Positions 385 through 24,756 of a stretch of DNA of 24,756 nucleotides are shown piece after piece. Made by a program: the position numbers and the translations under genes. Each line of letters starts with the position of its first letter. Within the stretch, counting starts at the first letter, position 1. The notes beneath the pieces are model-generated. The model saw only the letters and a list, made by a program, of their open reading frames with translations, ran no database searches and had not been told where the DNA came from. This DNA comes from Opeltia flavorubescens (Eukaryota > Ascomycota > Lecanoromycetes > Teloschistales > Teloschistaceae), in NCBI GenBank assembly GCA_000442125.1, contig KE546968.1, forward strand, positions 1 to 24,756, given 5' to 3'.

Positions 385-1266
385 GAAAAAATTTTTTTTA
401 TTTATACCGCCGATTATATTTATTTTAAATTATTATCGGTTTATTTTTATTATTTCGGAACTTTTAATTTAATTTATTTTTTTTTATATTCGAATTTAAT
501 TATAGATATATATATATTTTTATAAAATTGTTTTTTACCGAGTAGATTTAATCTATTATATTTTATAGATTCGAAACTATTTTTTAAATAAAAGTTAATA
601 TTTTAAATATTTTCCGTTTAAAATAAGATTTATAATAATTTTTAAAGGGTAATATATAAAGGAAAATATATTAGATTAATATTTTAATTTTATTAATATT
701 TTTAACGAATTTATTAGAACTATAAAATTTTAAATCGAATTATATAATTATTTCGTTTAATATTTTTATATTATTTGGATATTTATTTTATTATAATTTT
801 ATACGATTAACTGTTTTTTGGCGGCTTTAATCTAGAAATATATTAGTATTTTCGATTTAATAGCCTGCTTTTTACCGCTTTTATATATATAAAATATAAC
901 CGTATACTTTTAATAGTAATAGATAAAAATTTTATTATTTTTTTTTTATAAATTAATTCCGAATATTATAAAAAAATCGGGATTATATTTATATTTAGGC
1001 TAGTACTTTTTTTAAAGCCCGATTTTATTGAAATAAAAACTATCCGACTTTTATTCGATCGTTATTATTTTATTTTCGCGTACTTTTAGTATAATAAACT
1101 AGATAAATAGAATTAGCTTTTTTTAAACGGCGATTCGATAGTTTAATATACGCTAGAATATTTATTTTACCTCGATAACTATATATTTAAAAGGAAGTAT
1201 AATTAAAAATTTTTTTATTTAATTATAAAAGATTAATAAAATAGGTTTAATAATTAAATAATTAAT

Positions 1267-1297
<31 letters not shown>

Positions 1298-1600
1298 TTA
1301 AAAAATAACTTTTATTTTTATATTTTTCTAGAATTTTTCGCGTTTTAACGTTCGGTTTAAAAAAAAGGGCGAAATTTAAATAAATAGATATACCGGCCGA
1401 ATTAAACGATTTATTTTAAAATAAAAAAAATAATTTATTTTAAAATAAATAGAATAAATAAAAAATAACCGTTTTAAATAAATAATTCGAAAAAGGTTAA
1501 TAAAGTCGGAATTTTATATAAATTTTATATAGAATTATAAAGTTTAAACGGTAGTTTTTTATTATAGAATCCAAATATATATTATTATATAAATAGCTAA
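318..1600 (+). repeat. Subtelomeric repeat, copy A
   Basis: This stretch aligns in order with 2377-3632. Anchors shared by both copies include TTTTAAATTAAATAT at the head (318 and 2377), ATCTATTATATTTTA followed by AGATTCG or AGATTCGG (about 550 and 2610), TAGCCTG (861 and 2911), ATTAATTCCGA (953 and 3008), the long A tract (1273 and 3340), CGCGTTT then CGATT/CGGTTTAAAAAA (about 1339 and 3415) and GAATCC (1567 and 3599). The offset drifts from about 2059 to 2067 and then to 2032, so small indels have built up. Differences are mainly C/T and G/A, as expected after RIP of a duplicated sequence. No reading frame stays open. What the unit once was (a telomere-associated element or a retrotransposon end) is not clear. 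Confidence 0.8.
1273..1297. repeat. A tract, 25 bases
   Basis: An uninterrupted run of A inside subtelomeric copy A. A longer run lies at the matching place of copy B (3340-3369), so the tract predates the duplication. It could be the poly(A) tail of an inserted retroelement or a plain microsatellite. Confidence 0.95.
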
Positions 1601-2376
1601 AACTTTTAATAATAAGCTCGGCGGCCGCCGGAAAATATATAGCCTGGCTTAAATTTAAAAAATAAAATCGAAAATTATAAATATAAGCTTTATAAGCGTT
1701 TATAAAATAATAAAATATATAAAAACAAATATCCGTAGTAATTGGGGGTTAATATTGAAAATTTTTAATTTATAGCTAAAATTATAATTCGATTAATAGA
1801 TTAAAATAGTTTTGAATAATTTTATAAATAAAATATTATTATATTAACCGGTTTAGTATTAATATAATTTTAATTAGTATTTAATAATTAAAAAAATTTT
1901 AAACCGTCGAAAAAGGGCTATAATAAAATTTTAGAATTTAAATATTTTAACGTTTTTATTAATAATTAAAAATTCGAATTTTAAACTAGTTAGGTACTTT
2001 TTAATAATTTATCGATTATATAATTTTTTTAATTGCGTATTCGAATTGAGTATAAGTTTTTAATATAAAATAAATAATATTTATATTTAAACGCTAAATT
2101 TTTTAATTAAGCTACTTTTTAATACTTTTACTCTAGAGATTATTTACGCTATAATTGCTGGAAATAAAATCGAATTCGCTTATAGATAAATTCGATCTAA
2201 TAATATTTTAAATAAATTATATAAAGTTTTATTAATTTAATAGTAGCGGTAGAATAAAAAAGGTTTAAAAAAGAAAAATTTATCGGATTTTATTAGTTAT
2301 TCGGATAATAAAAAATACTTTAAATAATTTAAATTTTTTTTATTTATATACTAGAAATTATATCTAGTAATACAAT
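1601..2376. other. RIP-degraded DNA between the two subtelomeric copies
   Basis: No gene is seen. It carries a 12-bp perfect G/C palindrome, CGGCGGCCGCCG, at 1619-1630, which stands out in the A/T desert and contains no CA or TG for RIP to act on. A few CA and TG dinucleotides survive near 1725-1760. One copy of the dispersed palindrome lies at 2174-2191. The stretch after copy B (from 3633) does not align with this one, so the two copies are not simple head-to-tail units of about 2.06 kb. Confidence 0.6.
2174..2191. repeat. Dispersed TATA-centred palindrome, copy 1
   Basis: Core ATTCGCTTATAGATAAAT. The two 9-base arms differ only by transitions. Pairing extends outward: the core sits between CGA and TCG, giving a 24-bp imperfect palindrome at 2171-2194. 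Confidence 0.8.
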
Positions 2377-3335
2377 TTTTAAATTAAATATCTACTATTT
2401 TAGCTAAAAAAAATATATTAGTAAAAACTAAAAAAAATACTCGAAAATTTTTAATTTTTAATTATACGGTTGTTTTTAAATAAATTAGGCTATTATTAAA
2501 TTTTAACTACTATTATAAACCTTTATATTAAATTAGATATTATTTTTCTTCGATTTATTATATAACTTTATATATATTTTTTTAAAATAGTTTTTTAATA
2601 GGTAAATCTAATCTATTATATTTTAGAGATTCGGCTCCGTTATTATTTAAAAAGGTTAATTAAACAAATATATATTATTTTAAAAAAAATTAACGATTAA
2701 TTTTAAAAAATAGAATATAAAAAATATATTTAACTACGGCCCTAATTTTTTTAATATTTCCGCTAAATTTATTAATATTAAAAGATTCTAAATCGAACCG
2801 TATAAATATTCTATTTAATATTTCCGTATTATTTAAATATCGGTTTTTTTAATTTCGAATATATATAGCTGCTGGTAAATAAATATAATTTAAGTATATA
2901 TTAATATTATTAGCCTGATATTAATTTTTAAAGCGTTATATATATAAAAAACAACTTTATACTTTTAATAATATATTATAGAAATTTTATTATTTTTTTT
3001 TTATAGATTAATTCCGAGTACCGCGAAAAAATTTAAATTATATATTTATCTCGGTTAGTTATTTTTTTTAAGCGCGATTTTTTTAAAGTAGAAACCGTTT
3101 AATATTTTTTCGAATATTATTTTTTCGCTTTTAAATATCTCCGATATAAAATATTAAAAAATTAGAATTAGTTTTTATTAATCGCCGGCTCGAAAATCGT
3201 ATATTTTATAATAAAATTATAGTTTATTAAAGTATTAATTTTATTTTAATAAATATATAGCCTATAAATAAATCGAATAAAAAATTTAAATATAATAAAT
3301 TATAAAAGTAGATTTAACGGTTAAAATATTAATAG

Positions 3336-3371
<36 letters not shown>

Positions 3372-3632
3372 AATTTAAAGATAATTTTCGATTTTATATT
3401 TTATTAAAACTTTCCGCGTTTCGATATTCGATTTAAAAAAAAAAATAAAACTCGAGCGAATAAATACGCCGGTTGAATCTAGCCCGGTATTTTAAAAGTA
3501 AAAGATATTAATAAAAGGCGAATAGATTAAATAAATAAATAAAAAGGTTTTAATATAACTAGGGTTTTATATATAATATTTATTTATCGCGAATTAAAGA
3601 ATCCGAATCGTAATAAAATATTATATAGCCGA
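2377..3632 (+). repeat. Subtelomeric repeat, copy B
   Basis: Second copy of the unit at 318-1600, in the same orientation; shared anchors are listed there. It keeps somewhat more G and C than copy A, for example CGGCTCCG near 2632 and ACGCCGG near 3467, so the two copies were mutated to different degrees or at different sites. No open reading frame survives. Confidence 0.8.
3340..3369. repeat. A tract, 30 bases
   Basis: Uninterrupted A run at the same relative place as 1273-1297 in copy A of the subtelomeric repeat. The lengths differ (30 and 25), as expected of a slipping homopolymer. Confidence 0.95.
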
Positions 3633-3707
3633 GGCTACTAAAAAATCTTTTCTAACCTCGAAATATAAAATTTAATAAAGGTTTATATATACAATTAGTA
3701 GGATAAT

Positions 3708-3957
3708 AAATATATTAATATATATTTATATATCGAAGTTTAATAGTTTTTTTTTTAATTTTATTATAACTTATTTTTTATAAAAAATGGATTTTCTAAT
3801 AATTATTATACGCCTATTAATATCGTTTATAAAGGAAATTTATAATATTAAATGTATAGTTAATTAATCGATTTATATATTTATATTAAAATTATATAAA
3901 AATAATATACCTTATTATAAACGCTATATAGTATATTAGTATATTAGTACCTATAAA
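3708..3957 (+). repeat. Second dispersed repeat, short copy
   Basis: This aligns with 17272-17823. TAATAG at 3741 and 17305 and ATGGATT at 3787 and 17351 are both 46 bases apart, and TAATAATTATTATACGCC here matches TAATAATAATAATACGCC there. After about 3835 the other copy has some 300 bp more. The alignment resumes at TTAATTAATCGATTTATATA (about 3860 and 17728) and goes on through ATACCTT, ATACTATATAGTA-like and AGTATA blocks to about 3957. This copy is therefore deleted inside, or the other carries an insertion. No coding frame is evident. Confidence 0.7.
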
Positions 3958-5810
3958 TATATTAGATAAAAAAAAATTCCGATTATTTCTAGTCTATATT
4001 ACTTTTTTTATTATAAAAAAAAAAATTAAATAGACTATAGATAAAAATAAATTAATAATTTAATAAATATAATTCGAATAAACGCCCGAGACTTTAAAAA
4101 GAAAAATATAATAATTTTATTTTTTAATATAATTAGAAAAGTTCCGTTTAATAAATTTTATAAGATTATAATTTTTATTTATCTAATCCCTAATAATTTA
4201 AATAATAAAAAACCTTAAAAGTAATATATAAAATAAAAAATTATATAAGTTTATAATAGCGTATCTAGTATAAATATTAGCGCGGTAACGGTTTTAATAT
4301 TTAAAGTCCTTTATTTAAAACCGTCGGCTTATATTTAAAATATAAATATTTCGATAATATAAAATTTAACCTAATTTTAAAATTTAATTAATATTTTTTA
4401 ATAAAGTACTAATTATCCGATTAATCTAACTACCGATTTTTTCCAGCCGTTTAATTTTAATAATAGCTGGTTAATAACTATTAATAAAAATTTATAAATT
4501 TTTTTTAATTTTATAATATAAGAATCTTTTATTTAAACAATTAAATTTAAATTTAATTTTTAGTTTCTTTTTAATTATAAGTTTATTATTATACAAGTTC
4601 GATTTAAATCTTCGAAATCTAATTTTTTTTTCTAGTATTTAACTATTTTTAAATTTAGTAGATTATATAATATTAATTAAAAAGGTTTACTACTAATAAT
4701 AATAGATTTAGATTTTTACTCCTCGCTTTTATATTAGATATAGATTTTTAATACGCGGTAATTTATTTTTAAATTTAACCGTTAATTTTTTTAATTAAAC
4801 CGTTTTTAAAGCTATTACTATAAAGTTATTTATATTATATTTATATATTTTAAAAACTTTTTAAAATTATATTAGTATTTTAAAAAATAATAATATAAAT
4901 TTCTAATTTTTATTTTATTATAAATGTTTATCCTTTTTATTTTCGGAAGAATAATATTTAAAGCGCTAGAAATTAATAAAAAAAAATAATAATTCGGATT
5001 CGAATTTACCGCCGTTAGAAAAATTAATTGTATAATAGTTAAAATATCGGTTATAAAATACTTTATTATTATTATTTAAATTAAAAATAATTAAATTTTT
5101 TTCGAATTATACTTTCTTTTTAAATTATAAAGCCGATTTAAAAACTAGCGGATTTTTATAAATATTAGCGGATAATATAATCCGAAAATAGCTTTATTAA
5201 AAAACCCGAATAATTTTAAAATATAAAACTAATATAAATATTATTAATTTAATTTATTAGCTATCGACTTTTTTATTATTATTATTATCGGCTATAATTA
5301 TATTTTTTCCGTTATAGCTAAAACTATTATTTTTAACGTTTACTCGACTATTACCGGAGTTAGAAATTGTAAAATATATATTATATCGGTATAACTTAGT
5401 TTCTAGAAGTAGTAAAAATAATATTAGACGGCTATTAAATAAAACTATTAAAAGGCGAATTAAATTTCGAACTACTTTAAATTAATTATTTAAAAATACT
5501 ATAAAAGAGAATAAAAAGAATAATAGTAGCCAGGCGCTTTAATACTATTATATAGAATTTAAAATAATATATAACGGGTTAAAAGGTTTTATTAATAAAA
5601 TAATTTTGTAATTTATTTAATCTTTTATAAATAAACGATAAAACTACTAGTAGTATAGTATAATACTATATTATATTTCGAATTATTATATTAATACCGA
5701 TATTATAGCCAAATAACTTTATATTTCTATAAATTTATATAGAAAATTTAATTCTAAAGCGAATTTTAAATCTAATATTTTTATATAAAAAATCGGTTTT
5801 ATAAAAAAAA

Positions 5811-5832
5811 ACGCTATAATATTATATAGCGT
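5811..5832. repeat. Inverted repeat, ACGCTATA arms
   Basis: ACGCTATA and TATAGCGT form perfect 8-base arms around a 6-base A/T centre. A similar ATAGCGT/ACGCTAT pair lies at 14175-14197. It may be chance in A/T-rich DNA, but the arms hold CG steps. Confidence 0.5.
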
Positions 5833-6633
5833 ATATTAATATACCGTACTTTTATTAATTTTAATAGATATTTAAATCTTTTACGCCCTTTAATAGAAAA
5901 AATTCTTTAAAAAAATAACCGCCGGTATATTTTTACTAGTTTTCGTTTTAATATATTTTTCGACGGAAGATTTATTAATAATTGTAATCGGGTTAAATTT
6001 CTAATACTTTTTTAAAGGCTATTTTATTATTTTAGAAACTATTCGAACTTTAATATTTTTTAGAATAGCTATATTTATTTAATTATAATATCTATAATAT
6101 CGATTTTAAATAAATAGATCGATTTAAAAAAATTTTTTTTTTTTAACTGTATATACCTTAATTTTAAAAAAGTATTTATAATATATTATCGCCTATTTAA
6201 ATTATAACCCGTTAACTTTTTAATATAAATTCGGATATAATATTTTATAGAACCTATAACGTTAGTTTAACTCTAGATATTTTATTATAAGAATTAAATT
6301 TAAAGGATTCTATATTTTAAATAACAAATTAATTTAAAATCGGAAAATAAATAATCGAAAAATTATTATTTTAGCGCCTAATTATTTTAATAGATATATT
6401 TAAAAAAAAAAGATAATTTTAAATAAAATTAGTAGTAATCGAATTATCGGTAAATTAGAAAAAAAAAAGGGTCTGGAAAATTAAAATACTAAAATATAAT
6501 AAATCTAATAAAATAGGAAATAAAATAATATAAATTTTATAATCTATAATAATATTATAACTATACCCTAGTAGAATAAAAAATAATTAATTTATATACT
6601 TTCCCTATTAAATCGGGTATTATAGGCGTATTC

Positions 6634-6665
6634 GCGCCGAACTCGCCTATAAATAAATTCCGCGC
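6634..6665. repeat. Dispersed palindrome, copy 2, with extended arms
   Basis: The core at 6641-6658 is ACTCGCCTATAAATAAAT. The left arm keeps the presumed original C and G bases while the right arm has the fully RIP-changed form, and all arm differences are transitions. Pairing continues outward: GCGCCGA on the left faces TTCCGCGC on the right with a single non-pairing position, giving a palindrome of about 32 bp. It is the longest member of the family in the window. Confidence 0.8.
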
Positions 6666-8929
6666 TATTATAATTTTAAAGTATAGCGTTTATAGAATTT
6701 TTAATAAAAATAAAAATCGGAAATTTTAATTATATTAATATATAAAACCGTAATTTTAATTATTATTAAATAAAAAAGTAAAACTCTTTTATATAGGATT
6801 TAAAGTAATAGTCCCCGTGTATTTTTTATTAAATCTCGCGCGGTAAATTTAACGAGAATTATTAAAATAATTATTTTTTATTTTCTTTCTATAAATTTTT
6901 AAATATTTTTTATTTTTTTTTAAAATTATTTTTTATAATCTAATTTTATTCTATTTAGTAAAAAGATTTAATATAATATTATTATAATTTTTTTAAATTA
7001 TATTTAAGCTTTAAATAAAGTATTAAAGTTTATTTAATCGAAATTTATTAATTTATTATCTAATATAATATTTTTAAAAAGCTGGTTATCTTTATTTATA
7101 TAATATTAGACCTAGTTAATATTTAACCGTTTTTTTCGTTTTATTATTTTATTTACCTAGATATTATTAATAAGTAATTAAAATAGGTATAATAGATAGA
7201 TATTAATTAATTTGAAAAAAACTCGATTTTATTAGATAATAATATAATAGCGAGGTAGTTTTTTAATAATAACAAATATTTATAAAACGGGTATTAAAAA
7301 ATTAAGAAATTAAAAAAAAATCGAAATTGGTAAAAGTAACGAATATATAATAATCGCGACTAGAAGCGAAATATTAATAGAATAATTAGGGTATAATTTC
7401 GACTATTATATATTTATAATATTTATAAATCGGGATAAATATCTAATATTTTTTCCGGATTTTCTTACTTAATTTTAATTAATTTAGCTAATTGTTATTG
7501 GCTACTCGGAAGTTATACCTACTTTATATATTATATACTACTGGTTATCGAGTTAAATATTTTAATTTTAAAGATTAAACTTATAATAAATTTTAGTAAA
7601 ATTTAATTAGAAATTATATTATAAAATAGTTTAAAGTTACTATTTTTTCGAATATTTAATTTAATATATATAATATTAAAAAAAAAAAACTTTTTAAATT
7701 TATCCGGTTCGCGGTATAATAAATTAAAATATAGAAAAAAAATTCGTATATCTTAATAATAATATAGTTATTATCGATTTTTATAATTTCCGGAATCTTT
7801 ATTTTTTTAATATTTTTATAAAAAGATAAAATTATTTTTTGAAATTCGATTTTTTAACGGCCGATAGCTACGGGTAGAAATATAAAAAATAGAAAAATCG
7901 ATTTTATAACTATTTTATCGTTATAAAATATAACGAAAAAATAAAAATTAATATAATAGATAAAAAAAAAGGCGATAAATTTATATCGTATATATAAATT
8001 CGGTATAATTTAATATTGTATTTTTTTATAAATATAGCTTTAATAGTATAAAAGATAGCTATAGATAAAAAATTATAATATAAGGGGTTAACTTTTCTTA
8101 TAATACCGGAAGGTTGTATTTATTTTTCTGCGAAAATTATAATATAATATTAAATCGTCTAGAAGTTTAAACGTTCGATTATTATCGAGGTATTTATAAT
8201 TTAAAAAACGATATATATATATTTAAAGAGCAATTTACTATTTATTTAAACTTTTTTAAATTTATATTTTTATATTAGATAAAGTCTTTATTATATCTAC
8301 TAATTCGATAAACCCCGAATATCTATTTATATCTAATTTTCTTTTGATTAAACGGAATTAAATCCTATTTTTTTTCTATTATAGAAGTAATACTACCGTA
8401 TAGTTAGTAACTTTTATTTTAATTAAAAACGGTAGGTATACTAATTAATTTAAGGATAAACGATCGGATAAAAACTTTTAAAATATTTTTATATTCGAGT
8501 AGAAGACTTTTTTACTCTAATAGAAAGCTATAATTATATAATATAGAATCGAAAGATAATAAGTATATTTATCGAATAATATAATATATTTATACTAGAA
8601 TTTAAAGGAAGAAGTAGTTTTTTAATAAATAGAAACTTTAAATCGGGTATTTAAAGGAGAAAAGATATTTAAATCGGATATAAAAAAATCGGGTTATAGA
8701 AATATAAATTTATAAACTAGATTCTAAAAAAGTAAATTAAATATTTATAGGAAATAAAAATTAAAAAAAATAAAATAAAAAAAAAAATATTAGTATTAGA
8801 TTGATATACTAATTATTATTTAAAATTTCGAATTTATATATTATTAAAAAGGATATTATAAAATCGAATCGATAAGTTTTTTTACTATATTAGTTATTAT
8901 AAATAAATTACTATTAGGTAGTCGACCGA

Positions 8930-8947
8930 ATTTAACTATAAGCGAGT
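8930..8947. repeat. Dispersed palindrome, copy 3 (subfamily 2)
   Basis: Core ATTTAACTATAAGCGAGT. Arms match by transitions except at arm position 6, where A faces a C-type base. That change, and the GACCGA before the core, are shared with later members, which marks a subfamily. Confidence 0.65.
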
Positions 8948-9206
8948 TTTATAAATAAAAAAAGAGTATTAATAAATAAATAAGATATAATAATAAAAAA
9001 TAGTTATTAAAAATAAAAAACTTTAAATTAGATAAAATAAAAAATTAAATATAGATTTAATAAATACTAATCTAGTAAAATTTTTAAATAAAAAATTCGG
9101 TTCGATTTAAATATATACGAAAATCGGTAATATAATTTTATAACTTTTTATTTACTTTACTTTATTATTTAAAATATAAATAAAAATTATAAATATTGTT
9201 TTTATT

Positions 9207-9500
9207 AAATTTTTTTATTGGGGTTTATAAAATTAGCTGTTAAACGGTTTGCCTAATTATAATTATATAGATTTAGTGCTATAGATTAAAAAAATTTAAA
9301 AAACCAATTCTCAGATTTTAATTATAAAGCTAGGTAGCCGAGCTAGTTAAAATAAATTAGTATTATAGATAATAATATATTTTTTTTAGCTTTAAAATTA
9401 TTTTAAAGTTTTTAGTAAATATTTAATTAATTATAGTTACTATTTTTAGCCAGCGATTAACCGACTCCCTATTAGGGTTTACTGTATATTTAGCCTTCGG
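9207..9500. other. Pocket less altered by RIP
   Basis: TG and CA survive here more than around it (for example in TTGGGG, GCTGTT, TTTGCC, AGTGCT, CCAATTCTCAG and ACTGTA). TAGCCGAGCTAG at 9335-9346 matches the tRNA A-box consensus TRGCNNAGYNGG except for one G-to-A change, but I find no convincing B box downstream, so no tRNA or SINE is called. No intact gene is seen. The pocket may be single-copy or a recent insertion. Confidence 0.4.
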
Positions 9501-9661
9501 CGGGTTATTATAGAATCTTTAGAGGAAAAAGACTTTTAGAGTATTATCGAAACCGAGGTCTAATTTTATAAATTATAGATAAATTCTACTATTTTAATAT
9601 AGGGACTTAAATAGTTTTAAAATAAAATAATATTTAGCTAATATTATTTAAATTATACTAA

Positions 9662-9706
9662 ACTTATTTATAATTAAGTATAAATTTTACTCGCTTATAG
9701 GTTAAT
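9662..9706. repeat. Two dispersed palindromes 27 bp apart (copies 4 and 5)
   Basis: Cores are ACTTATTTATAATTAAGT at 9662-9679 and ACTCGCTTATAGGTTAAT at 9689-9706. The first has one non-transition arm mismatch at arm position 6, as in subfamily 2 but on the other arm. The second has one at arm position 4. Confidence 0.6.
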
Positions 9707-9970
9707 TTAAATATTCGTCGAGTTAAGTATATATATTCTACCGGGCTATTCCGAGTTAAATTAATATAGTCGTCTAGTTTAAATTAAAAAATAAAGATTG
9801 TATTTGTTTTAAATATATAGTATAATTTATTTATATTTAGTTACCGTTTAAAAGCGTTTTATAATCGGCTTTAATAGCGTTTTATTAAAAGTTTCGATAA
9901 TCGATTTTTATCGCTATAAATATTAATTATAAAACCCGCTGACTCTATATAAAAAATAAAAATAGGTCGA

Positions 9971-9988
9971 ATTTAACTATAAACGAGT
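9971..9988. repeat. Dispersed palindrome, copy 6 (subfamily 2)
   Basis: Core ATTTAACTATAAACGAGT, preceded by GGTCGA. Same arm-position-6 mismatch as the copies at 8930, 11523, 12931 and 16996. Confidence 0.65.
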
Positions 9989-10320
9989 ACTATTAAAAAA
10001 ATTCGGTATTTTAATATACTCGAGAACTGAATAGCTATATTAGAAAATAAGGCGGGTGAATAGTATAAAAATATAAAAGTAGCTATAATTTATTTAAACG
10101 ATAAATTTAAATAAATATCTTTTATTTAAATCGGTTAAAGATAATTATTAAATCTAGAAATATAGTATACCCGTTTAACTTCGATTTTAATAATACCTAA
10201 AATCGCTATACGGGTTTTTAAATTTTTCTGGATTAATTTAATAGCTTTATTAGCTGTAATATTAATATTTGAATTTATTTAAATCTATTATAGGAGCGTA
10301 TATTAAGGTTTACTTTAAAT

Positions 10321-12880
10321 ACCCGAAGATTTTAATAGAAAAAATAATATAGTAAAATCTTTAAATATCGATTTATTAAATTTTAAATATTTTAAAATAA
10401 TTAATTTTAAAAACGGGCGTATTATTATAATCCGAAGACAACTATTAAATTTAAAAAATAGTTTAATAGAGCGTTAAAAGAAAAGAATTTAGATATTTAA
10501 ATAAAGGTAAAAAATTTATAACTCTATTAGAATAATAATAGATTATAAAAACAAAAAACCTTATCGAATAAAAATATATATAATAACGTTTTTCTAGAAG
10601 CGAAATAGAATTAAAACTATTAAACTAGCTTTTAAATACCTTTAATATATATAAATTAACGAGATTTTATTAAAAAATTAGTATTTTTTTATAATAAAAT
10701 AAATAAACTTTTAATCGAAGGTACCGCGTATAATAATAATCTACCTAATCCCGTTTAAATAAAAGTATTTTTATAGCGGTTAAACTTTTAATTTTAAAAT
10801 ATCGAGCTTTAAAATATTTTAATTTATAGGATTTATATATATTGTAAATCGCCTATTATTTATTAACTAAAAAATAGTATTTTAACCGAATAATCGCAAG
10901 CTTTATATATTAATTCTATAAAAAAACTTAGATCTTTTTAAAAAAGAAAAAATCGATTATTAATCCTTTAAAGTTTTACTTTACTTTAATAAAATATTAT
11001 TAGGCGTATAAAAACGCTAATATCGATAACTTTATAAAGGTTTTATATAGCTTAAACTATAAGCGTATTATAAACCGTAGGGTTTATATTAACCGAATCT
11101 TTTCCCGGTAACCCTAATATAAATTACTATCGAGAAAATTACTTTTAAATCCGGTGTAATTCCTTTAAAATAATATATAAAAATAGCGTATTAAGCTATA
11201 AAAAGTAAATCTAGCGATANTTTTTCCGCTAAAATTTAATATTAACTAAATATCTACTAATTAGTATAAAACGGACCGGTCGAAATATTTTATATTTTTA
11301 TATTATCGAATATAGTATTATTAATCTTATAATTGTTTAAAGGCGAAAAATATACTTTTTAAAAAAGAAAAATTACTAATAAATAACTAGTTTAAACTAT
11401 TTTAATTTACGATAATAATAAACTAAAAATATAGATTTTAATATTAGACTTAACCTGTATATAAATAAATAAAAGTTCTATTTTTTCGTAATACTACGTT
11501 CGTAAAAGTTAAAATAGACCGAATTTAATTATAGATAAATTAGAATTTAAATTAATTTAATTTTATTTAATTTAACGAATATAAAAAGAATTACAAAAAT
11601 TAAATACTTTAATAAAAAAAGTAGGTAAAGAAAAATAAAAGGATAAATACTAGATTTATTAAGGAGAAAGAATCGATTATATCCGAATTTATATATATTT
11701 ATAGTAAGCCTTATAAAAGCGAGGTAAAAATATAAAATAATATAATTATTGAGATTTATATAAAGTAGAGAATTTAAATAATTTAAAAAAAGGAATATTA
11801 TTATAAATATAGGAGTAAATAGTTAAGTCTATTTTTAATAAAATTCTAATACGGTTATATTAAATTCTAGATTATAGTTATAAATAGTATATTTAATTTT
11901 TTTATCGAATAAAAATATCTTTTTTTTAAATTTAAATAATTATATTTTAATTTTTTATAGAATTATTTAATAGGTTTTTAAATACTTCGATTTTTTAAAT
12001 TAGATTTCTTTAAAAGGAATAATAATAGTTTAATAGTATTATTATTAATTAAAAAAGCTATTCGATAATTTTAATATAATTTAACTATTTATATTAGTAG
12101 TAACGAATAAAAAAGTAAAAATAATATTTTTTCTATTAAATATTTCAATCGGTAGCCCTTTTTTTTTAATTAGAAGTAAACCGCTTTAAATTTTTATAAC
12201 ATTTATAATCTAAAATTAGTATTTATTATCGGTCGAAACGGAAAAGTTATTTAAAAGCTTAATAATAAATATAATAAATCGGAATTAAAAAATTATAAAG
12301 GTTATAATATAAAACTAAATCGTTTAAAAGTTTAGCCGTTTAATAAAACTAATTATTTAATAAAAAAAAAGGTAAAGATTTAATATAATTATAAAATATT
12401 ATAATAACTTTTATTTAATACTTCTCTACCGGGTACTTTCAATATTATTTATTATTAACCTTTAATCGGATATTTTTTAGCTCGCTTTTATTAGATTATA
12501 TACTATTATTAATAGCTTTAATTATATATTATATTTTTTATTCTTTCTATATTTAGTATTAAAGGAGGGTTATTTTATTCGAAATTTCTAGAAAATTTTA
12601 AATTTACTAGTTTTACCGCTTTTATAAATTAAACTTAGTTAAATACTCCGTGGTATTTTATATTATATTCCGGCGCTAAAATAAAATCTTTTATTAAAAA
12701 GAGTAACTAGATACAAATAGTTTAAAAGTTCGGTAACTTTAGTTGTAGTTCTTTTATAAATTTTAGATAATATAAATTTAATATTATTATAACCGGTATT
12801 TCTAATATTTAAATAGTCCTATTAAAGAGTTAGTATTTATATTATTTTTATTCGATATAAAATCTAATAATACTTATCGT
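10321..12880 (+). pseudogene. Possible dead open reading frame, product unknown
   Basis: Read in the frame that starts at 10321, this stretch shows fewer stops than the other forward frames in the lines I compared. The stops are nearly all TAA or TAG, the codons RIP makes from CAA, CAG or TGG. Stop-free runs include 36 codons at 12481-12588 and about 24 codons ending at the stop at 11338. A TGA at 10270 lies before it. The implied peptide is rich in I, L, K, N, F and Y, which any A/T-rich frame would give, so appearance is no proof. No domain or motif was recognised. The likeliest source is a transposon or repeat-family gene killed by RIP. A palindrome copy lies inside (11523) and others lie on each side (9971, 12931). 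Base 11220 is an N. Confidence 0.3.
11523..11540. repeat. Dispersed palindrome, copy 7 (subfamily 2)
   Basis: Core ATTTAATTATAGATAAAT, preceded by GACCGA as at 8930. Arms differ by transitions plus the subfamily's arm-position-6 mismatch. Confidence 0.6.
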
Positions 12881-12930
12881 AATTTTATAATCGCGATTAA
12901 CGTAAAAAATAAAGGCTGAAAAATAATTAA

Positions 12931-12948
12931 ATTTAATTATAAACGAGT
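12931..12948. repeat. Dispersed palindrome, copy 8 (subfamily 2)
   Basis: Core ATTTAATTATAAACGAGT, with the same arm-position-6 mismatch. It lies about 50 bp beyond the end of the possible dead frame at 10321-12880. Confidence 0.6.
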
Positions 12949-13418
12949 ATAAATAGTTATATATTATATATTAATATAGGTTTTAATATAATTTAAAGTT
13001 AAATTTAAAATCCTAGATTATATATAAAAACTATTATTAAAAGTAGCGAGTCGAAAAAACTATAGTTATAATTATAAATTATTTAATCTCGGACTTTTTA
13101 ATTATAATTATAGAATTGTATTTTAATATATATATAAAATTAGGATATCCTTTATAATTAGAGTAGATTACTCCGATTAGTAATAGAATTACTTTTCGAA
13201 AAGTCGAGTATTATATAATAGGACTTCGATTAGGTTTTATAATATTTTTATAACCTTTAAATTTAGGTTAGTAATTATAAAACCGAATTTTATAAAAGCT
13301 AATATTAATAAGATTTTATAATATATTTATAGCTTTTAACTAAAGGAAATAACTTTAAAAGTTAATCGAAATCTAAAAAGGTAATATTTTCGAAAATTAG
13401 ATATAAATACTAAATCGA

Positions 13419-13436
13419 ACTTACTTATAAATAAAT
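13419..13436. repeat. Dispersed palindrome, copy 9
   Basis: Core ACTTACTTATAAATAAAT, preceded by TCGA. Arms differ only by transitions. Confidence 0.75.
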
Positions 13437-13596
13437 TTAAAAGCGGTTATAACTTATTAGCTCTAGAAAAAATAATTATAAATTTAGATTAATATATAAA
13501 GTTAGTATTTAAAATACCCCGATATAATATTTTTATTATACCCGTTTATAGGTTTTTATATATAGAAATATATAACTTTATTTACGGATAATATCC

Positions 13597-13751
13597 GTAT
13601 AATATATTAGTAGATATAAAGAATCTATAAAAAATAGCTGCTTAATATACTAATAGATATAATAAAACTATAAAAAATATTTGTATAGTAAACGGGCGGA
13701 TATAAAAATACCGCGGAAAATATCCGTATAATAAGCTGGTGGGTATATAGG
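13597..13751. repeat. Tandem array, about 43-bp unit, 3.6 copies
   Basis: Units begin near 13597 (44 bp), 13641 (43 bp), 13684 (42 bp) and 13726 (partial). The head of each unit has the form TATARTAARC-GGTRGRTATA, seen best as AACGGGCGGATATAAAAATA in unit 3 and AGCTGGTGGGTATATAGG in unit 4. The tail of units 1-3 is a CTATAAAAAATA- or CCGCGGAAAATATCC-like block. Units differ mainly by transitions. Units 1 and 2 are almost fully converted to A/T, while 3 and 4 keep GGG and CTGGTGGG, so RIP hit neighbouring units unevenly. Confidence 0.7.
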
Positions 13752-14174
13752 GATTATTTTAATAATACCGCTAGTATTAATAACCAAATTTAAAGATTAG
13801 TCGAAAAGAAAAATAGTTTCCTATAACTTTTACCGCGTATTATTTAAGGTAGTAGTTAAAAAAAAAAGTAACTCTATCCGAGAAAGTATATAAATTCTAG
13901 AAATCCTATCGGATCGCCTTTAACGTTAATTTATACTATTTTTTAAAAGGTTTCGATAGTAAAAAAACTTTTATAGTTTAGGTTTTCTTTAATTTTTTAT
14001 TATTTAAACTTTTTACCCGTAATTTTTAAGTAGTTTATTAGTTAATAAAAAGTTTTCTATTAGTACTAAATAGTAATTATATTAAATTATCGATATAATT
14101 AAATAAATAACCTTTTACTAGTAATCTTTAATTTTTCGGGGCTAATTATTTTTAATAGGTAAGAATCGAGTATA

Positions 14175-14252
14175 ATAGCGTTTATACTATACGCTATATA
14201 GTTATATATAATAACGCTTGCTACGTACAACTATATAATAACGTTAGCTATA
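14175..14252. repeat. Short inverted and direct repeats
   Basis: ATAGCGT (14175-14181) and ACGCTAT (14191-14197) form perfect 7-base arms. Next, GTTATATATAATAACGCTTG (from 14201) and AACTATATAATAACGTTAG (from 14229) are a diverged direct repeat about 27 bp apart. Low-copy and short; function unknown. Confidence 0.45.
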
Positions 14253-15070
14253 AATAGTAGTAGTTTATAATTTACTATTAGTATTAATAGTTAAATTACT
14301 ATAAATAGCGTAATCGAAATTTTATAACGGACAAATTATATTAATATAAATAAAGTATATAAATAAAAATAATATAAATTATAAATAATTATAAAACGGG
14401 TAGAAAGTTTTTAAATTATATAGTAGTAAATTTTATTTAGAATCGAATAAAATAAAAGGAGGAAAAGTATTAAATAAAATAATTATAGAAAAAATTTAAA
14501 AAAAGTTTATTTATATATAGTTAGAACCTATTTATAATATTATTAAATACGGTATAATTATATAGTTTAGCGTTTTATATAAAGTACTGGTTGGCTTTAT
14601 CCTTATTCGGTAATATTTATTAAGCGGGATAAATTTTAAAGAGCTTATTTAATATAATAATATCTTTTAAAAGTTTTAAATAACTAATAATAAAGTTAAT
14701 AAATAATATTTATTAAATTATTTAAATATCGAGCTTATTTAAAACAAGTATCTACTCGAGTAATATTATTAGAGGAGTATCGATATATAAGCGCGACTTA
14801 ATAGATATATAATAGTAATTTTTTTATATAAAGATTATATTAAGGGCGGGTATAAAAAGAATAATATTAGTACCGGCTATACTATTAAAGGAAAAAATCT
14901 AATTTAAATATATAAAGGCGTCTATCGATAATATAATAATTAAATAGCCTCCGAATAGGATAATTAGTATAAATATAAAAAGAATAAAATAATATCGCCG
15001 AATAAATTAAATAAAAATAATTTATACTATATAAATTTTTATCGATATTATTTTTTAAAACCTCTACTAT

Positions 15071-15088
15071 ATTTATTTATAAATAAAT
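15071..15088. repeat. Dispersed palindrome, copy 10, fully converted
   Basis: Core ATTTATTTATAAATAAAT, an exact 18-bp palindrome made only of A and T. It is what the family consensus becomes when every C and G is lost by transition. On its own it could also be chance in A/T-rich DNA. Confidence 0.5.
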
Positions 15089-15369
15089 ATAAATATAAAA
15101 AAATTTAAACTCTAGTATTTTTTATTATAATATAGGCGCTTTAAAGGCGGTAGATTTATATTAATATTTAGAAACGAATATTAAAAGGGATAAAAGGAAT
15201 TAAACTTTTTATTAAAAGTAGATAATAATACGGCCGGAATTAATCGGCGCTCTTTAATATTTATACCGGTTAGTTCGTATTCTTTTATATTTAAATAAAT
15301 AGTAAAATTATATATATTCGAAACCGTTTAAAAAGGTCATTTAAATAGTTTAAAAGATTTATTAAAATT

Positions 15370-15470
15370 ATTAAATTTTTTAAACTTTTTAGATTTTTCG
15401 GATACTTTAGATTTTTCGAATATTTTAAATTTTTCGGATTCTTTAGAATTGTCGGGTTCTTTAAATTTTA
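15370..15470 (-). repeat. 18-bp tandem repeat inside the dead frame
   Basis: Plus-strand units TTTAGATTTTTCGGATAC (15388), TTTAGATTTTTCGAATAT (15406), TTTAAATTTTTCGGATTC (15424) and TTTAGAATTGTCGGGTTC (15442) follow one another exactly, with weaker partial units on both sides. The period is a multiple of three and the repeat is in frame with the minus-strand frame, where each unit codes for six residues (KxxEKS/KESEKF-like). This argues for a coding origin rather than a random satellite. Confidence 0.85.
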
Positions 15471-16189
15471 AAAATAAAAATAACTTTAAAGACTTCTTAT
15501 TAAAACTATTAATATAAACCTATAATAAAATCTATAACGAAATATTTATTTTTTTTAAATTAATTTTATTAATCTTCTTTTAAACTATAAAAAGCTGGTT
15601 AATTATATACTTTAATCTAAAAATTTTATTATTCTAATATATCTTTTTAAGCCTTTTTAATAGCTGTAGCTACTATATAATTTTTCTTTATTTATATTTT
15701 TTTAATAACTTTAACTACTTTTAAATTTTTTTTATTCTTTATTTTTTTTTATTTAGCCCTCGCGCGTTTTACCCTCGTTACAAACGCTATTATTTATTAA
15801 ATATTAACTGCGGCCTCTACTAGAAATACTAAATTTTATTACCGGTATTTATTAGAATATTTATTTAATTTAACTTCCTTTTCTTTTATACGTTTCTTTT
15901 TTTTTTTTAAAATCGGCTGGTTAATTTAAAGAATCTATATAATATAAAATTAATAAACCTATTTTCCCTTTAATAATTTTTCGATAGTTAGAAATTATTA
16001 GTAGCGTCGATTATATACTCTTTTTTTTAATAAATAACTGGATTATTTTTTATATTAAATATTTAATAGGTTTTATCTAGTATTAACTTTAATATTTTAA
16101 TATTAGAGAGTATATAGATAGAAATAATAAACTTCTAGTAATAATCTAATCTATATTTCGATATATTTAGATATTATAGAAATTTTCTT

Positions 16190-16209
16190 CCCGAATTAAT
16201 TAATTCGGG
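16190..16209. repeat. Perfect 20-bp palindrome
   Basis: CCCGAATTAATTAATTCGGG is an exact palindrome, followed by GGCTTTTT. It looks like a bacterial hairpin terminator, but the setting is eukaryotic and it lies inside the dead minus-strand frame. It contains no CA or TG, so RIP could not have broken its symmetry. Confidence 0.7.
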
Positions 16210-16995
16210 GGCTTTTTAATTTTTTTATTTTTTATAAATTCCTTTTCCTCTAGTAGTAAATCTTTTATTATTATATTTTAGATTAACCTTTAATATAGCC
16301 GAGAATAGCGCTATTTAAATAAGTCGCGATAGAAATTCTCCGACTATATTAATATATATTCGCTGGTAAAATTTTATAAAATATTTTTAAAATCTTCTTT
16401 TAATATACGGGCGCGGATTTTATTTATTATAATTTAAAAGACTCTAATATCGGTCTACCCGATAATAATTAAATATATTTTCTAGGTTGTAAAAGTATTT
16501 AACGCCTAATTATACGAGTATAATATTATTATAATATAAAAGGTATATTAGTTCTTTTATCCGAGCTTTAATATATAATCTAATACTTAAATAATAAACT
16601 ACGCGTTAATATATATATCCGGGAATATAATATCCAATTCTTTGAATTAAAAGTTTTTAAAGATCGCGGAAGTATATATACTAGTAATTAATCTTATAAT
16701 ATTATTATTAAAGTCGTTAAATTTATTTACAACAATATCTTTATTATATTATTTATATACCGACCGGATTAATATAATAAAAAATTTTAAATTTACTAGA
16801 AAGCTTTTAATTAATTATTATATAACCGGCTATTTATAGTAGATTAGAAATTTCCTCTAATAGATATAATAAAAGTTATAGGCGAGAACGGCGATAGCCT
16901 TTAGCTTAATTAATAAGTACGTTATATAATTATAAATATCGATTTTAGCCTATAATAAAGTTAACTTTAGATTTCGAGAATTTTAATTCTATTAA

Positions 16996-17013
16996 ATTCG
17001 ATTATAAACGAAT
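16996..17013. repeat. Dispersed palindrome, copy 11 (subfamily 2)
   Basis: Core ATTCGATTATAAACGAAT. Arms match except by transitions and the arm-position-6 A/T mismatch that marks this subfamily. The flanks AA and TC extend the pairing slightly. Confidence 0.6.
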
Positions 17014-17271
17014 TCTATAAAGAACGGACTATATATTTATTTAAGGAATAGAGTATCGAATATCGATTCTAGTTATAAAAAAGAAGTTAATCGCGCTATA
17101 ATTATTTATTATATACTATATATTTATATTTATAACGCTATTTTTTAAATTTATAGTAAATTTCTTTATTAAAAAAGCGAATACTATATAATTTAAGCGG
17201 CGATATTTAAATATATTATATCTAGCTTTTTTTATTTTTTTATTAACGCCTCCGCCGAGGTTTTAAATATA

Positions 17272-17823
17272 AAAAATATAGATAAATATATATTTAAATA
17301 TTTTTAATAGTTTTTTTTCGAGTTTTAAGGCCACTTATTTATTATAAAGGATGGATTTACTAATAATAATAATACGCCCGTTAATATTATTAATAATAGA
17401 TATAAATATTTATTATAGGTATATTATATAAAAAAACGGTAGGAATAAATCTATTATAGTATCGGATTTTAGCTACTGGCTTTACTAAGGTTTCGCGATA
17501 TTATAAAAGGCTTATAGATAAAAAAAATACTAATATTTAATTAATTACGTAGCGAATAATTTTTTATTATATAATATTTTTTTAATTTATTTATATTCTT
17601 TTAAATTTAGGTATTTATTCTTTTTCTCGACGTTATTTAAATAGATAAAATATAGTAGGCCTTAAAAGTCGGCCCTTTTATTAAATATAAAAATAGCGGT
17701 TACTAAATTATAGTATCGGGTATTTAGTTAATTAATCGATTTATATATTTAGATTAAAATATCTTAAAAGCGATATACCTTGTTATAAATACTATATAGT
17801 AGATTAGTATACTAGCTATATAG
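17272..17823 (+). repeat. Second dispersed repeat, long copy
   Basis: Pairs with 3708-3957 in the same orientation. The head (17272 to about 17388) and the tail (about 17700-17823) align with it without large gaps. Some 300 bp between them (about 17389-17700) have no partner there. The tail shares TTAATTAATCGATTTATATA and a following ATATACCTT-GTTATAAA-like block. No transposase frame or terminal repeat was recognised, so the kind of element is open. Confidence 0.7.
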
Positions 17824-18668
17824 AATACCGATAGAAAAAATTTTAGTTATTTATACGCGCCCGAAAATATTTAAATAAAATAATCGATATTTTATATCTA
17901 GTTCTACTAGCTCGTCTATTTTTTTTATATTGTTTTTATCGCTTAATTTAAGACGCCGCTACTTATAAAAATTCGGATTCGAATCTATATCTAGGGATCG
18001 GTTTATTTAGATATTATAAGTAGTAAAATATATTTATTTTAAAATACACGGGATATTAAATAATTACCGGATATTTTTAAAAAGGTCTATAATATCGGTT
18101 TTTAATATAATTTTATAGTAATCTAGATTTAATTACAAATTAGAGCTACTATAAAATAAACGAAAGTATTATACTAAAGTAGGGATCTCTAGAAGCTTTT
18201 TATACTATATTTAACTACTCGAACTTTTATAGATAATAAGGGTTGGGCGGTATTACCTATTTCCGATTTTATTAACTAGTAACGCCGCTTTATAGTATTT
18301 ACGCGCCTAAAAATCGGTAATAAATTAGATTATTTTCTTTTTAACGGTTTTAAAACGCGAGTTAAAAAATTTAAAACGAGATTAAATTATATTAAAAAAA
18401 ATTTAACTAGAAAAATATAAAAGTTAATCTAATATTTTAATAATAGATATTTCTTTTTTAAATATTTTATTAGCTATATTAATATTATTATTAAGGATAG
18501 TATTAAAGGCGTCGACTATAAAAATATTTCGACTAATTTTATTTATAGATATTTATCTCTCGCTTATATTACCGGAATATTACTTCTTTTATATATTAAA
18601 CGATTTTAAAAAATATAATTTCGTTTTTAGAAAAAATAATAATCGGATTAATAGTATTTATAGAAAAA

Positions 18669-18820
18669 TCGATTACTATTTTACTAAACTCGCTTATAAA
18701 TAAATAGGATTATTATTTTACCGAACTCGCCTATAAGTAAATAGGACTGGCACTTTATCGAACTCGCTTATAGGTAAATAGGACTATTATTAGAGCTACT
18801 CGCCTATAAATAAATTCGGT
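18669..18820. repeat. 37-bp tandem array of the dispersed palindrome (copies 12-15)
   Basis: Four palindrome cores start at 18688, 18725, 18762 and 18798, that is, 37, 37 and 36 bp apart: ACTCGCTTATAAATAAAT, ACTCGCCTATAAGTAAAT, ACTCGCTTATAGGTAAAT and ACTCGCCTATAAATAAAT. The spacers are also alike (AGGATTATTATTTTACCGA, AGGACTGGCACTTTATCGA, AGGACTATTATTAGAGCT), and part of a spacer precedes the first core, so the whole 37-bp unit was amplified. Every core has the presumed original bases on the left arm and converted ones on the right, which shows strand-biased mutation or a shared ancestor that was already asymmetric. Confidence 0.88.
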
Positions 18821-20406
18821 AAAATAGCTATCTACTATTAGGCTAGCTAGATAGCGAAATAGAATAAAAAGATAGTTATAGCTAAGAGATTTATTTACTA
18901 TTATTCTTTTTTTCCTATTTTAATTATATACTCTCTACCGCGTATACTATATAAAATAATAACGATAGCGTTTTTTTTAAATCTATATTATTCGCTAAAA
19001 TAATACTTTTAAAGGCCCGTTTAATATTTATTTTTTAGATTATATACTAAACTTACTATATATAAAAGAGTTTTTAAACGTTATATTTAAAAATTAATAT
19101 AATAGAGTTTAAGTCTAAAAATTTATAGGCTTTCGGATATAAAAAGAGTATTATATTATAAACGTTTATACTAATATATATCGCGTTATATAAGTTATTA
19201 GGTAGAAGCTAGGAAATAAATAGGTCTTCGGGTAGTAAATTAGAGAAGTTTTTTCTTTTAAAATAGTTATCGAGGTTTTTTTAAATAATATTCTCGATAA
19301 TAACCTCCGTAAGTTTATTAATAACGCGTCGCTATTTTTTTTTTTTTTATTATATTTCTATTATAAATAAAATAATCTAAAAAAAATTTTTAAAGTAAAC
19401 AATTTTCGTATATTTAAAATTATATTAGGCTTCTATTAGAATAGCCTACTACTAGACTAATATTAGGGCTTATAGATTATTTTTACGGTTATATCCTATA
19501 AAATTATAGAATCGAATTTTATCTAAATTAAAAATAGTTAAATAACTCGCGAGGTTATTTATATATTTTATTTTTTTTTTTTAATTTATTTTTAATCTCG
19601 GTCGCGGGTTTAATTATTTTTTATTTTTTAGTTATTATATTATTTTAGTAAATTTTATCGATATATTTTTTTTAGTTATAGTATTTAGCGTATTTTATAA
19701 TATTTTCGAGTTGAGTTTTTAATTATCGGGAGTTATAAACGTTATAAAGGCGGCTAAAATTTAATAAATATTAGAGGAGATAGAATTTAGAATTATAATA
19801 TCTTTTTTTTTTTTTTAAACGAATTATAGTAGGGTATAACCGCGGGCCTAATTCTCTATAATAAACCCCTAGTACTTAATAGCCGGCTCGTTATTAATAT
19901 AATCTTATATTAAATCGGGTTAAATACTAAAAANTTTTAAAATTATATAATAGATAATTATTTATTTTCGATAATTATAGGTATTAATAGTATTATTATT
20001 TGGAAGCGTTAAAATAGATAACTAGAAAATATATTCTTTAAAATCGAATACAGGGAATATATTTATAAAGGTCTAGTTACTTATTTTATTAAAGGTTTTA
20101 ATATATTTTTTAAAATATTTAATAAAAATAAATTAGATAGTAAAATTATATAAGAGTTTATAAACGTTAAAGGTATTTAGAATTTTAAAATAAAAAGTAA
20201 ACTATACAATATTATCGAGCTAACCGGGATTAATAATTAATACTTTAAAAGAGTTTTTCCGGATAATTTAGACCTTTTTATCTATAGCGCGATAAAAATC
20301 GATTTTTATAGTAACTTTCTCTAATTTTATAGTCGGTTCTAGCGTCCCGTCCGATTTACGTTTTTTAATATATTTTCTAATCGTTATAAAAGCTCTAATC
20401 GACGGT

Positions 20407-20424
20407 ATTTACCTATAAATAAGT
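20407..20424. repeat. Dispersed palindrome, copy 16
   Basis: Core ATTTACCTATAAATAAGT. Arms differ only by transitions. Confidence 0.75.
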
Positions 20425-20519
20425 TAAATACTAAAAATTCGGATATTTTATCGAATTCGTTAGTAGGCTAATTAGAAAGAAAAAAAAAAAGAACGAAATA
20501 AAAAATAAAAAGCCGTTAA

Positions 20520-20537
20520 ATTCGTTTATAGGCGAGT
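20520..20537. repeat. Dispersed palindrome, copy 17
   Basis: Core ATTCGTTTATAGGCGAGT. Arms differ only by transitions; here the right arm is the better kept one. It lies 113 bp after copy 16. Confidence 0.75.
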
Positions 20538-21115
20538 TAATTCTTTTATAATTAAATTTAATTAAAATTTACCTTTTAAATTATAATATACTGTAAAATA
20601 AAGGTTAATTAACGAATAAAGAGGTATAATAGGGGTTAAAAATATTAAAGTTATTATAAAAGCTACGGAGTTAGTATAATAAATAATTAGAATCGGTATA
20701 AATTATTTTATTATATTATAAATATTAGTTAGTAATATACTAGGTTTTAAAGCGAAATTTTAAATAGAATAATATACTATTATAAATTATAAATAATTAT
20801 AATATAATATAGCGAAGCTTTTAAAAGCGTTGAATCGCGTTATAAAGTCTAATTAAAGGTAAAAATATAAAATAACGAACGAAACCGAGTATCTATAAAA
20901 GAAAAAGAGTATAAAATATAATATAGAGGAAATTAAAAATTTAGAGTTTATAAAAGTAGTTTTATACCTATATTAGCTTATATATCTAGTAATTATCGAT
21001 AAAAGTCGCGTAATATAATTTCTTTTACTAGTAAATACTTACTAATAAAAAAATAAAGTAAAATAAAATAAAATAATATAAAGTAAAAGTAATAAAAAAA
21101 AAATATATAAAATTA

Positions 21116-21133
21116 ATTTATTTATAGGTAAGT
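21116..21133. repeat. Dispersed palindrome, copy 18
   Basis: Core ATTTATTTATAGGTAAGT. The right arm keeps GG and GT while the left arm is fully converted. Differences are transitions only. Confidence 0.75.
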
Positions 21134-21810
21134 TTAATAAAATAAATAGTTAGAATATAATATTTAAACGCCTATTAGTAAGTCTAGTAATATTTATAAT
21201 CTAGATAAATTAATACGATATCGAAGCTAGTTTATATAAAGATATTTAGACGCTTTAAATCTAATAAAAAATAGGTTTTTTAATAATAGTCTAAAAGGAA
21301 TTAATATCTAGGCTTTAATAGATTCTATTATTCTAAAGTTAAGCTAGACGAGAAGGCCGTAGAACCTTGCTAGGCCTAGATATTATAGAGAAATACGGTA
21401 ATAAAGGGTATTTAAAAGGGTAAACGAGGAATATTTTAATCGCGGGAGTCTTTAATTAAATAATCTAACTAATATTTAATTTAAAAGATTGCTTTTATTA
21501 AAATTTATTAATATAATATTAAAATTATAGAAGAATCGGTAGGGTTTTTATACTAGAAATTATAGTTTAAGGAGATAGGGCTTTTTTATTTTTTAGTATA
21601 GTAGTAATATAATAGTATTATATAAAAGATTAAATTTCTATTTTTTAATAAACCTTTCGATATAACTATTAAAAGGTTATTAAAGTTAAAATTATTATTA
21701 TAATTTTATTAATTTAGATAGATTAATATTAAGACGAATATTATTAAATATTTTATCGCGCGGTAATAAAAATTAACGTTCTAGCTATTAAATAGATTTA
21801 GCGAAACGCC

Positions 21811-21960
21811 GAACTTACTTATAGGTAAATTTAGTATAATTATCTAACGATTACCGAAGGTCTAAAGTCGCTTATAAATAAATAGGGTATAGTTATTATA
21901 TACTTATCGAGTATTTAAAGTTGTTTATAGGTAAGTACAGCCGTTTATATAAACTTTTTA
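21811..21960. repeat. 53-bp tandem array of the dispersed palindrome (copies 19-21)
   Basis: Cores start at 21813, 21866 and 21919, exactly 53 bp apart: ACTTACTTATAGGTAAAT, AGTCGCTTATAAATAAAT and AGTTGTTTATAGGTAAGT. The first two 35-base spacers line up with each other (shared GTATA, TTAT, ATCGA/ACCGA and TAA blocks), so the 53-bp unit as a whole was duplicated. Copies 2 and 3 share a G at core position 2 that the wider family lacks. Confidence 0.8.
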
Positions 21961-22019
21961 TATATTACCCGACTTTTTTAACTTTATAATATCTAATTTT
22001 CGAGTTTAAAAAACGACTC

Positions 22020-24726: not shown

Positions 24727-24729
24727 TTA

Positions 24730-24756
24730 TTTTTTTTTTTTTTTTTTTTTTTTTTT
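24730..24756. repeat. T tract at the window end
   Basis: At least 27 T in a row up to the last base. As the only sequence after it is missing, this is probably where an assembly or read stopped. The long A tracts at 1273 and 3340 are the same motif on the other strand. Confidence 0.9.

Follow-up and report, generated by a model that had tools for sequence, protein, structure and literature searches.

Short palindromes as fixed internal repeats of a subtelomeric unit in Opeltia flavorubescens

Background

Subtelomeric repeats degraded by repeat-induced point mutation (RIP) are known from filamentous ascomycetes, and the subject here is a chromosome end of one ascomycete, Opeltia flavorubescens, together with the short palindromes that are spread along it. 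In Stagonospora (Parastagonospora) nodorum, two RIP-degraded, multi-copy repeats bear helicases, according to the main text of their description: X26, which is sub-telomeric and 4.6 kb long, carries a telomere-associated RecQ helicase, and X3X3R8 (X3 of 9.4 kb and R8 of 9.1 kb before they were merged) carries Rad5/SNF2-like helicases and a Rad6-like ubiquitin-conjugating enzyme (PMC3017866). The main text on the subtelomeric AT-rich element classes of Aspergillus flavus gives them a constant polarity toward the terminus (PMC9910759). Among telomere-linked helicases and the telomeric retrotransposons FoTeR and MoTeR, a passage of PMC12857005 has FoTeR truncations keeping the telomeric repeats of the opposite end.

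The whole stretch analysed here, called the window, is 24,756 nucleotides long and corresponds to C4:1-24756 (contig KE546968.1, assembly GCA_000442125.1) in a genome of 34.4 Mb and 23 contigs. It is a chromosome end, with a (CCCTAA)n telomere repeat at 1..94 on the plus strand. An initial annotation, made from the window alone, had listed 21 TATA-centred palindromes in it. Positions marked C2rc are coordinates of contig C2 counted from the telomere.

Palindromes of a telomere-adjacent unit

Rather than forming an independently dispersed family, the palindromes occupy fixed places inside a single telomere-adjacent repeat unit of about 28 kb, which is present at many chromosome ends. Genome-wide, a degenerate-centre core allowed at most one mismatch finds 32 sites, and all 32 lie inside copies of the unit (backwards control, 1); two 24-base versions, allowed up to three mismatches, each find 12 sites, none of them outside the unit copies (controls, 0). 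A looser TATA pattern has 98 matches genome-wide vs 9 for its backwards control, and among the 50 of these that were listed, 49 fall within copies of the unit and the remaining one in AT-rich sequence of C7. The window holds only one copy of the unit and therefore cannot, by itself, show that the sites belong to a larger repeat. It was from the window that the initial annotation held the palindromes to be unexplained by larger repeats, a statement that does not survive, and suggested a search of the genome for copies elsewhere, of which the strict patterns found none outside the unit. A single repeat copy can look like a dispersed family.

Site-by-site comparison was made with six copies and that of C21, seven in all, C14, C19 and C22 being left out. 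The palindromes line up across all seven, tandem units excepted: the array with a 37-bp period is one unit longer in C18 and one unit shorter in C13, and the 53-bp group of C21 is short of one unit. The site at C2rc 22560 is degenerate in C1, and the fragment in C3 has the single site that falls in its span. No empty sites were found in the seven copies, whose youth (0.01-0.37% transversions) makes this a weak test, and among their gaps of at least 10 bases there is no insertion of another element at a site, a possibility that the initial annotation had raised. It had also been envisaged, as a refutation of the family, that all the sites might lie at one fixed place in a single larger transposon; that is not literally so, but it is right in spirit, there being about 25 fixed places in one larger repeat.

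Within the window, the family is far above chance, and it is RIP-worn. The core pattern tested is the 18-base AYTYRYYTATARRYRART. All 21 cores were located at the starts first listed for them, 12 matching perfectly and 9 with one mismatch, and there is no further match with zero or one mismatch elsewhere in the window. Dinucleotide shuffling, a check that the annotation itself had proposed, does not approach these counts: 200 shuffles gave a mean of 0.05 perfect matches (maximum 1) and 0.415 with one mismatch (maximum 3), and the corresponding figures from Markov models (orders 2 to 4) were 0.02-0.045 and 0.38-0.43 per window. When the letters of the half-site were taken in 210 orderings, the observed order had 12 perfect matches and the runner-up 5. 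CpA (49) and TpG (110) are nearly absent from the 24.8 kb, as expected under RIP. The assertion that the mismatches between arms are C/T or G/A at most sites is right for the 12 perfect matches, for which the pattern guarantees it, and wrong for the other 9. An additional, poorer site, which had escaped the earlier list, is revealed by comparison of the copies (C2rc 21234, about 20540 in the window); it adjoins the listed site at 20520, so that the two make a double palindrome at 20520..20557.

Ancestral form and symmetry

In the C2 copy (GC content 38%), the centres of the 25 sites are TATA at 9, TGCA at 6, TACA at 6 and CGCA or CGTA at 4. If each column of the seven copies is given the letter that it probably had before RIP, these become TGCA 8, TACA 5, CGCA 3, TGTA 1, TGCG 1, CGTA 1 and TATA 6, and TACA and TGTA are probably half-worn TGCA. 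Since 19 of the 25 sites have G or C within the central four bases in some copy, the TATA centre owes its origin for the most part to RIP acting on a form near CCGAACTCGCCTGCAGGCGAGTTCGG; the consensus is gCCGAACTCgCCTgcAGGtgAGTtcggc, with lower case for 50-70% agreement. The one site of the C3 fragment has TATA, though that fragment looks little affected by RIP, and thus not every centre was TGCA. A perfect ancestor with TATA retained, as first proposed, does not agree with the different pre-RIP centre of those 19 sites. RIP can create a false motif: here, most of the sites had a different centre, in many cases CCTGCAGG, before it became TATA.

Because the sites were sought with a symmetric pattern, pairing inside the 18-base core follows from the search itself and is not counted as evidence. 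Outside the core, at distances of 10 to 14 bases from the centre, the two sides pair strictly in 14, 10, 10, 10 and 13 of the 25 sites vs 6.4 expected, so that the symmetry extends past the core in part of the sites. Of the two outer ends, CCGA/TCGG, a site often has just one, and no column more than 14 bases from the centre exceeds 0.5 bits. Lone exact half-sites were sought and none was found; lone 14-base half-sites with one mismatch number 5 and 4 on the two strands, vs about 4 expected per strand, and a shorter, 11-base half-site with one mismatch has 37 and 39 matches on the two strands, not only lone ones. Many cores read CAG/GTRAGT on both strands, which recalls splice sites; that reading was dropped, many sites having GGCGAGT and a 37-bp spacing being short for introns.

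The unit and its copies

The C4 copy of the unit (95..24756 in the window) is RIP-worn, with a GC content of 14-25% per kb; it is about 750 bases shorter at its telomere side than the copies in C1 and C2, and a gap of Ns follows it in the contig. From base 95 on, the ends of C1 and C2 align with nearly the full length of the window, and C12, C13 and C18 with long parts of it. The C21 copy aligns with those of C2 and C18, and two 2.5 kb probes match at least 11 contigs (C1, C2, C3, C4, C12, C13, C14, C18, C19, C21 and C22). CCCTAA repeats stand at the ends of C1, C2, C3, C4, C13 and C18.

In C2rc coordinates, the unit extends to approximately base 28195. Its inner edge is common, within a few bases, to C1, C2, C3, C12, C13 and C18 (C2rc 28193, C1 28252, C3 1211, C12rc 16803, C13rc 15542 and C18 17742), and the DNA beyond it differs. 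This edge has an ATC/ATT-rich tail and resembles an insertion end more than the product of ordinary exchange. The telomere side, in turn, is variable. The C1 and C2 copies start near the unit start and C19 matches from unit base 181 (the last 123 bases of C19 were left out of the comparison); CCCTAA joins the unit at C2rc ~852 in C4, ~5234 in C13, 10646 in C18 and 27083 in C3, and the C12 copy starts at C2rc 11425 with only about 13 bases of CCCTAA. Telomere repeats are, then, joined directly to differing internal points of the unit, which gives the impression of chromosome ends that broke and were then capped. C18 also has part of a further right end, arranged in tandem, and C21 carries a partial copy in inverted orientation.

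The 21 pairs that can be made of the seven copies differ by 12.7-31.5% transitions vs 0.01-0.37% transversions, and the apparent identity of 68-87% between copies is therefore reduced almost wholly by RIP-type change. To judge from their sequences, the copies stem from one recent ancestor. The extent of wear is uneven. A 1.1 kb piece of the unit at C3:101-1211 is little affected by RIP (GC content 48%; 118 CA and TG dinucleotides vs 64 in the matching stretch of C2), though worn copies of it exist elsewhere. At the other extreme are stretches of very low GC content beside the C2 copy (8-16%), in most of the C21 copy (4-12%) and in C7 (9-11%), in which RIP wear exceeds that of the window.

Proceeding inward from the telomere, the palindromes of the window lie at 2174..2191 (the C2 equivalent has a TGCA centre), 6641..6658, 8930..8947 (left-arm variant AAC), 9662..9679 and 9689..9706 (a close pair), 9971..9988 (left-arm variant AAC; the C18 telomere junction is 19 bases from the equivalent site), 11523..11540 (left-arm variant, AAT in the window and AAC in C2), 12931..12948 (left-arm variant, AAT in the window and GAC in C2), 13419..13436, 15071..15088 (the C2 equivalent is a perfect ACTCACCTGCAGGTGAGT) and 16996..17013 (left-arm variant, GAT in the window and GAC in C2). 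Four more form the 37-bp tandem array at 18677..18815 (sites at 18688, 18725, 18762 and 18798). Beyond these come 20407..20424, the double palindrome already referred to, 21116..21133, and three sites with 53-bp spacing at 21813..21936 (21813, 21866 and 21919). Near the telomere a stretch is also duplicated in tandem with a period of 2.06 kb (window 220-1430 and 2346-3503), and in the C2 copy each half has a palindrome (C2rc 810 and 2869).

Coding remains

The unit seems to carry the remains of an SNF2-type helicase gene, probably at 17623..19043 on the minus strand of the window (positions converted manually from those in C2, using an offset of 694); the remains are full of stops, match below the family cut-off, and leave the 37-bp array between their two stretches. 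When the six frames of the C2 copy were compared with Pfam, stops being read as X, two SNF2 stretches appeared in two frames (E 0.049 and 0.066, below cut-off). The SNF2 reading relies on the right order of these stretches, on a genome-wide SNF2 search in which a C18 stretch reached E 4e-4 (a second C18 stretch and one in C2 had E 0.02; all are below the family cut-off), and on helicase motifs read by eye, motif I near 18930-19043 and later motifs near 17623-17754. A search of solved structures had Rad5 as its best match (E 0.31) and yielded nothing relevant from the downstream half. The other Pfam matches of the C2 copy, all of them weak, unrelated and below cut-offs, are Trypan_PARP, a repetitive-protein family (E 0.039), DUF1600 (E 0.33, two frames) and CFAP143 (E 0.35); part of the six-frame translation had no match at all.

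In the same six frames Pfam listed no reverse transcriptase domain and no member of the RecQ family, the only helicase matches being the weak SNF2 ones. None of 34 matches to PF00179, the ubiquitin-conjugating enzyme family, is in the unit, although heavy mutation could hide one. Even when the copies are combined column by column, open frames do not exceed 168 amino acids, and the ancestor was therefore probably already damaged before the copies spread.

Interpretation

The explanation that we prefer, with a probability of roughly 0.4, is that the sites were reiterated, two-fold-symmetric putative binding sites for a dimeric DNA-binding protein, and passengers of the unit. About 25 of them, with a consensus near the form given above, were present in the common ancestor of the copies, and RIP produced the TATA centre at most of them. 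The target of the putative protein might have been the unit or chromosome ends. The sites may have multiplied partly by local tandem duplication, with periods of 37 bp, 53 bp and 2.06 kb, and would have moved only as passengers of the unit. A dimer site fits the two arms of the palindrome, the symmetry that part of the sites have beyond the core, and the lack of lone exact half-sites.

Several observations weigh against a binding site. Neither a binding protein nor a function was found, and CGAACTYRCCTRYAGGYRAGTTCG has no match in collections of viral and prokaryote contigs, which says little for a fungus. Ten of the 25 sites have an uncompensated, one-sided transversion in an arm, giving no hint of strict selection for symmetry; five of the ten share the same left-arm change (C2rc 9621, 10665, 12217, 13625 and 17690). 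The common ancestor of the copies was already partly RIP-worn, and the copies are too young for a test of constraint (transversions in 1 of 644 columns inside sites vs 133 of 27551 outside).

That shared left-arm change also bears on the possibility that the palindrome is a minimal mobile element, a miniature inverted-repeat transposable element reduced to two fused inverted ends, which multiplied within the unit before the unit spread. The change marks a five-site subfamily, in which three members also have some 12 bases of left flank in common, and some 25 similar discrete units without lone exact half-sites are what such an element might leave behind. Flanking repeats exceed chance here and there: 2 of 25 sites vs 0.1 for four bases at boundary 11 and, when C/T and A/G are merged, 6 vs 1.7 (four bases, boundary 9), 8 vs 3.3 (three bases, boundary 17) and 4 vs 1.0 (five bases, boundary 19). 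However, these excesses are scattered over 132 combinations of length and boundary and fix neither a length nor an edge, and exact repeats of at least three bases, as a target-site duplication would leave, are present at 0 to 2 of the 25 sites, whichever boundary is chosen. The one-sidedness of many outer ends, the absence of presence/absence differences between the seven copies (tandem units excepted) and the confinement of all strict matches to the unit speak against it as well. The results do not support a palindrome that moves by itself, and we regard this alternative as doubtful, although it survives better than the others.

Next comes a neutral origin, in which a palindromic minisatellite seed was copied by slippage and ectopic exchange in a fast-changing subtelomere and has no function. 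It takes its strength from the 37-bp, 53-bp and 2.06 kb tandems, all of which carry palindromes, from a copy number that varies between copies, and from the left flank common to three sites. Local duplication accounts better for the tandem groups than for the sites outside close groups, and these are 14 of the 25; the low information of the columns more than 14 bases from the centre also argues against it, as does the finding that neighbouring sites resemble each other no more than distant sites do (Mantel r 0.03, p 0.32). As an account of the whole set it is unlikely.

More improbable still is a dispersed recognition array, through which a protein of the unit or of the host would mark and handle these chromosome ends, perhaps also fixing the point at which a broken end receives its cap. 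The sites of parS and CENP-B are comparable in layout. If a protein does bind the palindromes, the unit would offer a handle on the recognition and spread of subtelomeric units in a fungus with RIP.

The seemingly broken and capped ends raise the further thought that chromosomes break at palindromes and are healed there by addition of telomere repeats. In two of the five internally truncated copies (C4 at C2rc ~852 and C18 at 10646), about 30 bases at most separate the telomere junction from a palindrome. This is suggestive only; an approximate post hoc calculation, done by hand, gives it a chance probability of roughly 2%. C3, C12 and C13, on the other hand, are capped about 0.24, 0.74 and 2.1 kb from a palindrome, the C12 cap being the short one already mentioned, and healing at the sites is very improbable. 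That the palindromes are chance matches favoured by AT-rich, RIP-worn sequence is already refuted by the shuffles, the Markov models and the sharing of sites between copies, for all that AT-rich versions like ATTTATTTATAAATAAAT match easily and that the loose pattern has its control matches and its one listed match outside the unit.

Comparison with known systems

The S. nodorum repeats are among the nearest in kind. Like X26 and X3X3R8 as described (the likeness is one of description, not of sequence), the unit is multi-copy and RIP-degraded and probably has helicase remains; it differs from X3X3R8 in having no match to a ubiquitin-conjugating enzyme, and from X26, X3 and R8 in being several-fold longer. 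The main text of PMC3017866 has no mention of 'palindrom', and that of PMC9910759 contains neither 'palindrom' nor 'helicase'. By description, too, the unit resembles the A. flavus classes in being an AT-rich repeat at chromosome ends with a fixed polarity. With telomere-linked helicases, FoTeR and MoTeR, as far as PMC12857005 portrays them, it shares one-sided truncation and, probably, helicase-bearing chromosome ends. It differs from this group in that its probable helicase remnant looks SNF2-like and that no reverse transcriptase domain was found in the C2 copy, and unlike FoTeR it has no telomeric repeats in the 110 bases beyond its inner edge.

As to the palindrome itself, it was not found in the literature searched, a weak negative that covers titles and abstract openings of part of the matches. 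Rickettsia palindromic elements and their like are short palindromes in many copies, some of them inside genes, that are described as spread genome-wide; the palindromes described here differ in being confined to one repeat unit. Reiterated short protein-binding sites are also a feature of subtelomeric repeats, as in the X and Y' elements of yeast and SPE2 of Plasmodium, and the reiterated short sites of the present unit are like these in arrangement, which is a likeness of layout and not of compared sequence. The unit itself has the traits of the RIP-degraded subtelomeric repeats of filamentous ascomycetes, being telomere-adjacent, dominated by transitions and depleted of CpA, and is best taken as a further example of them.

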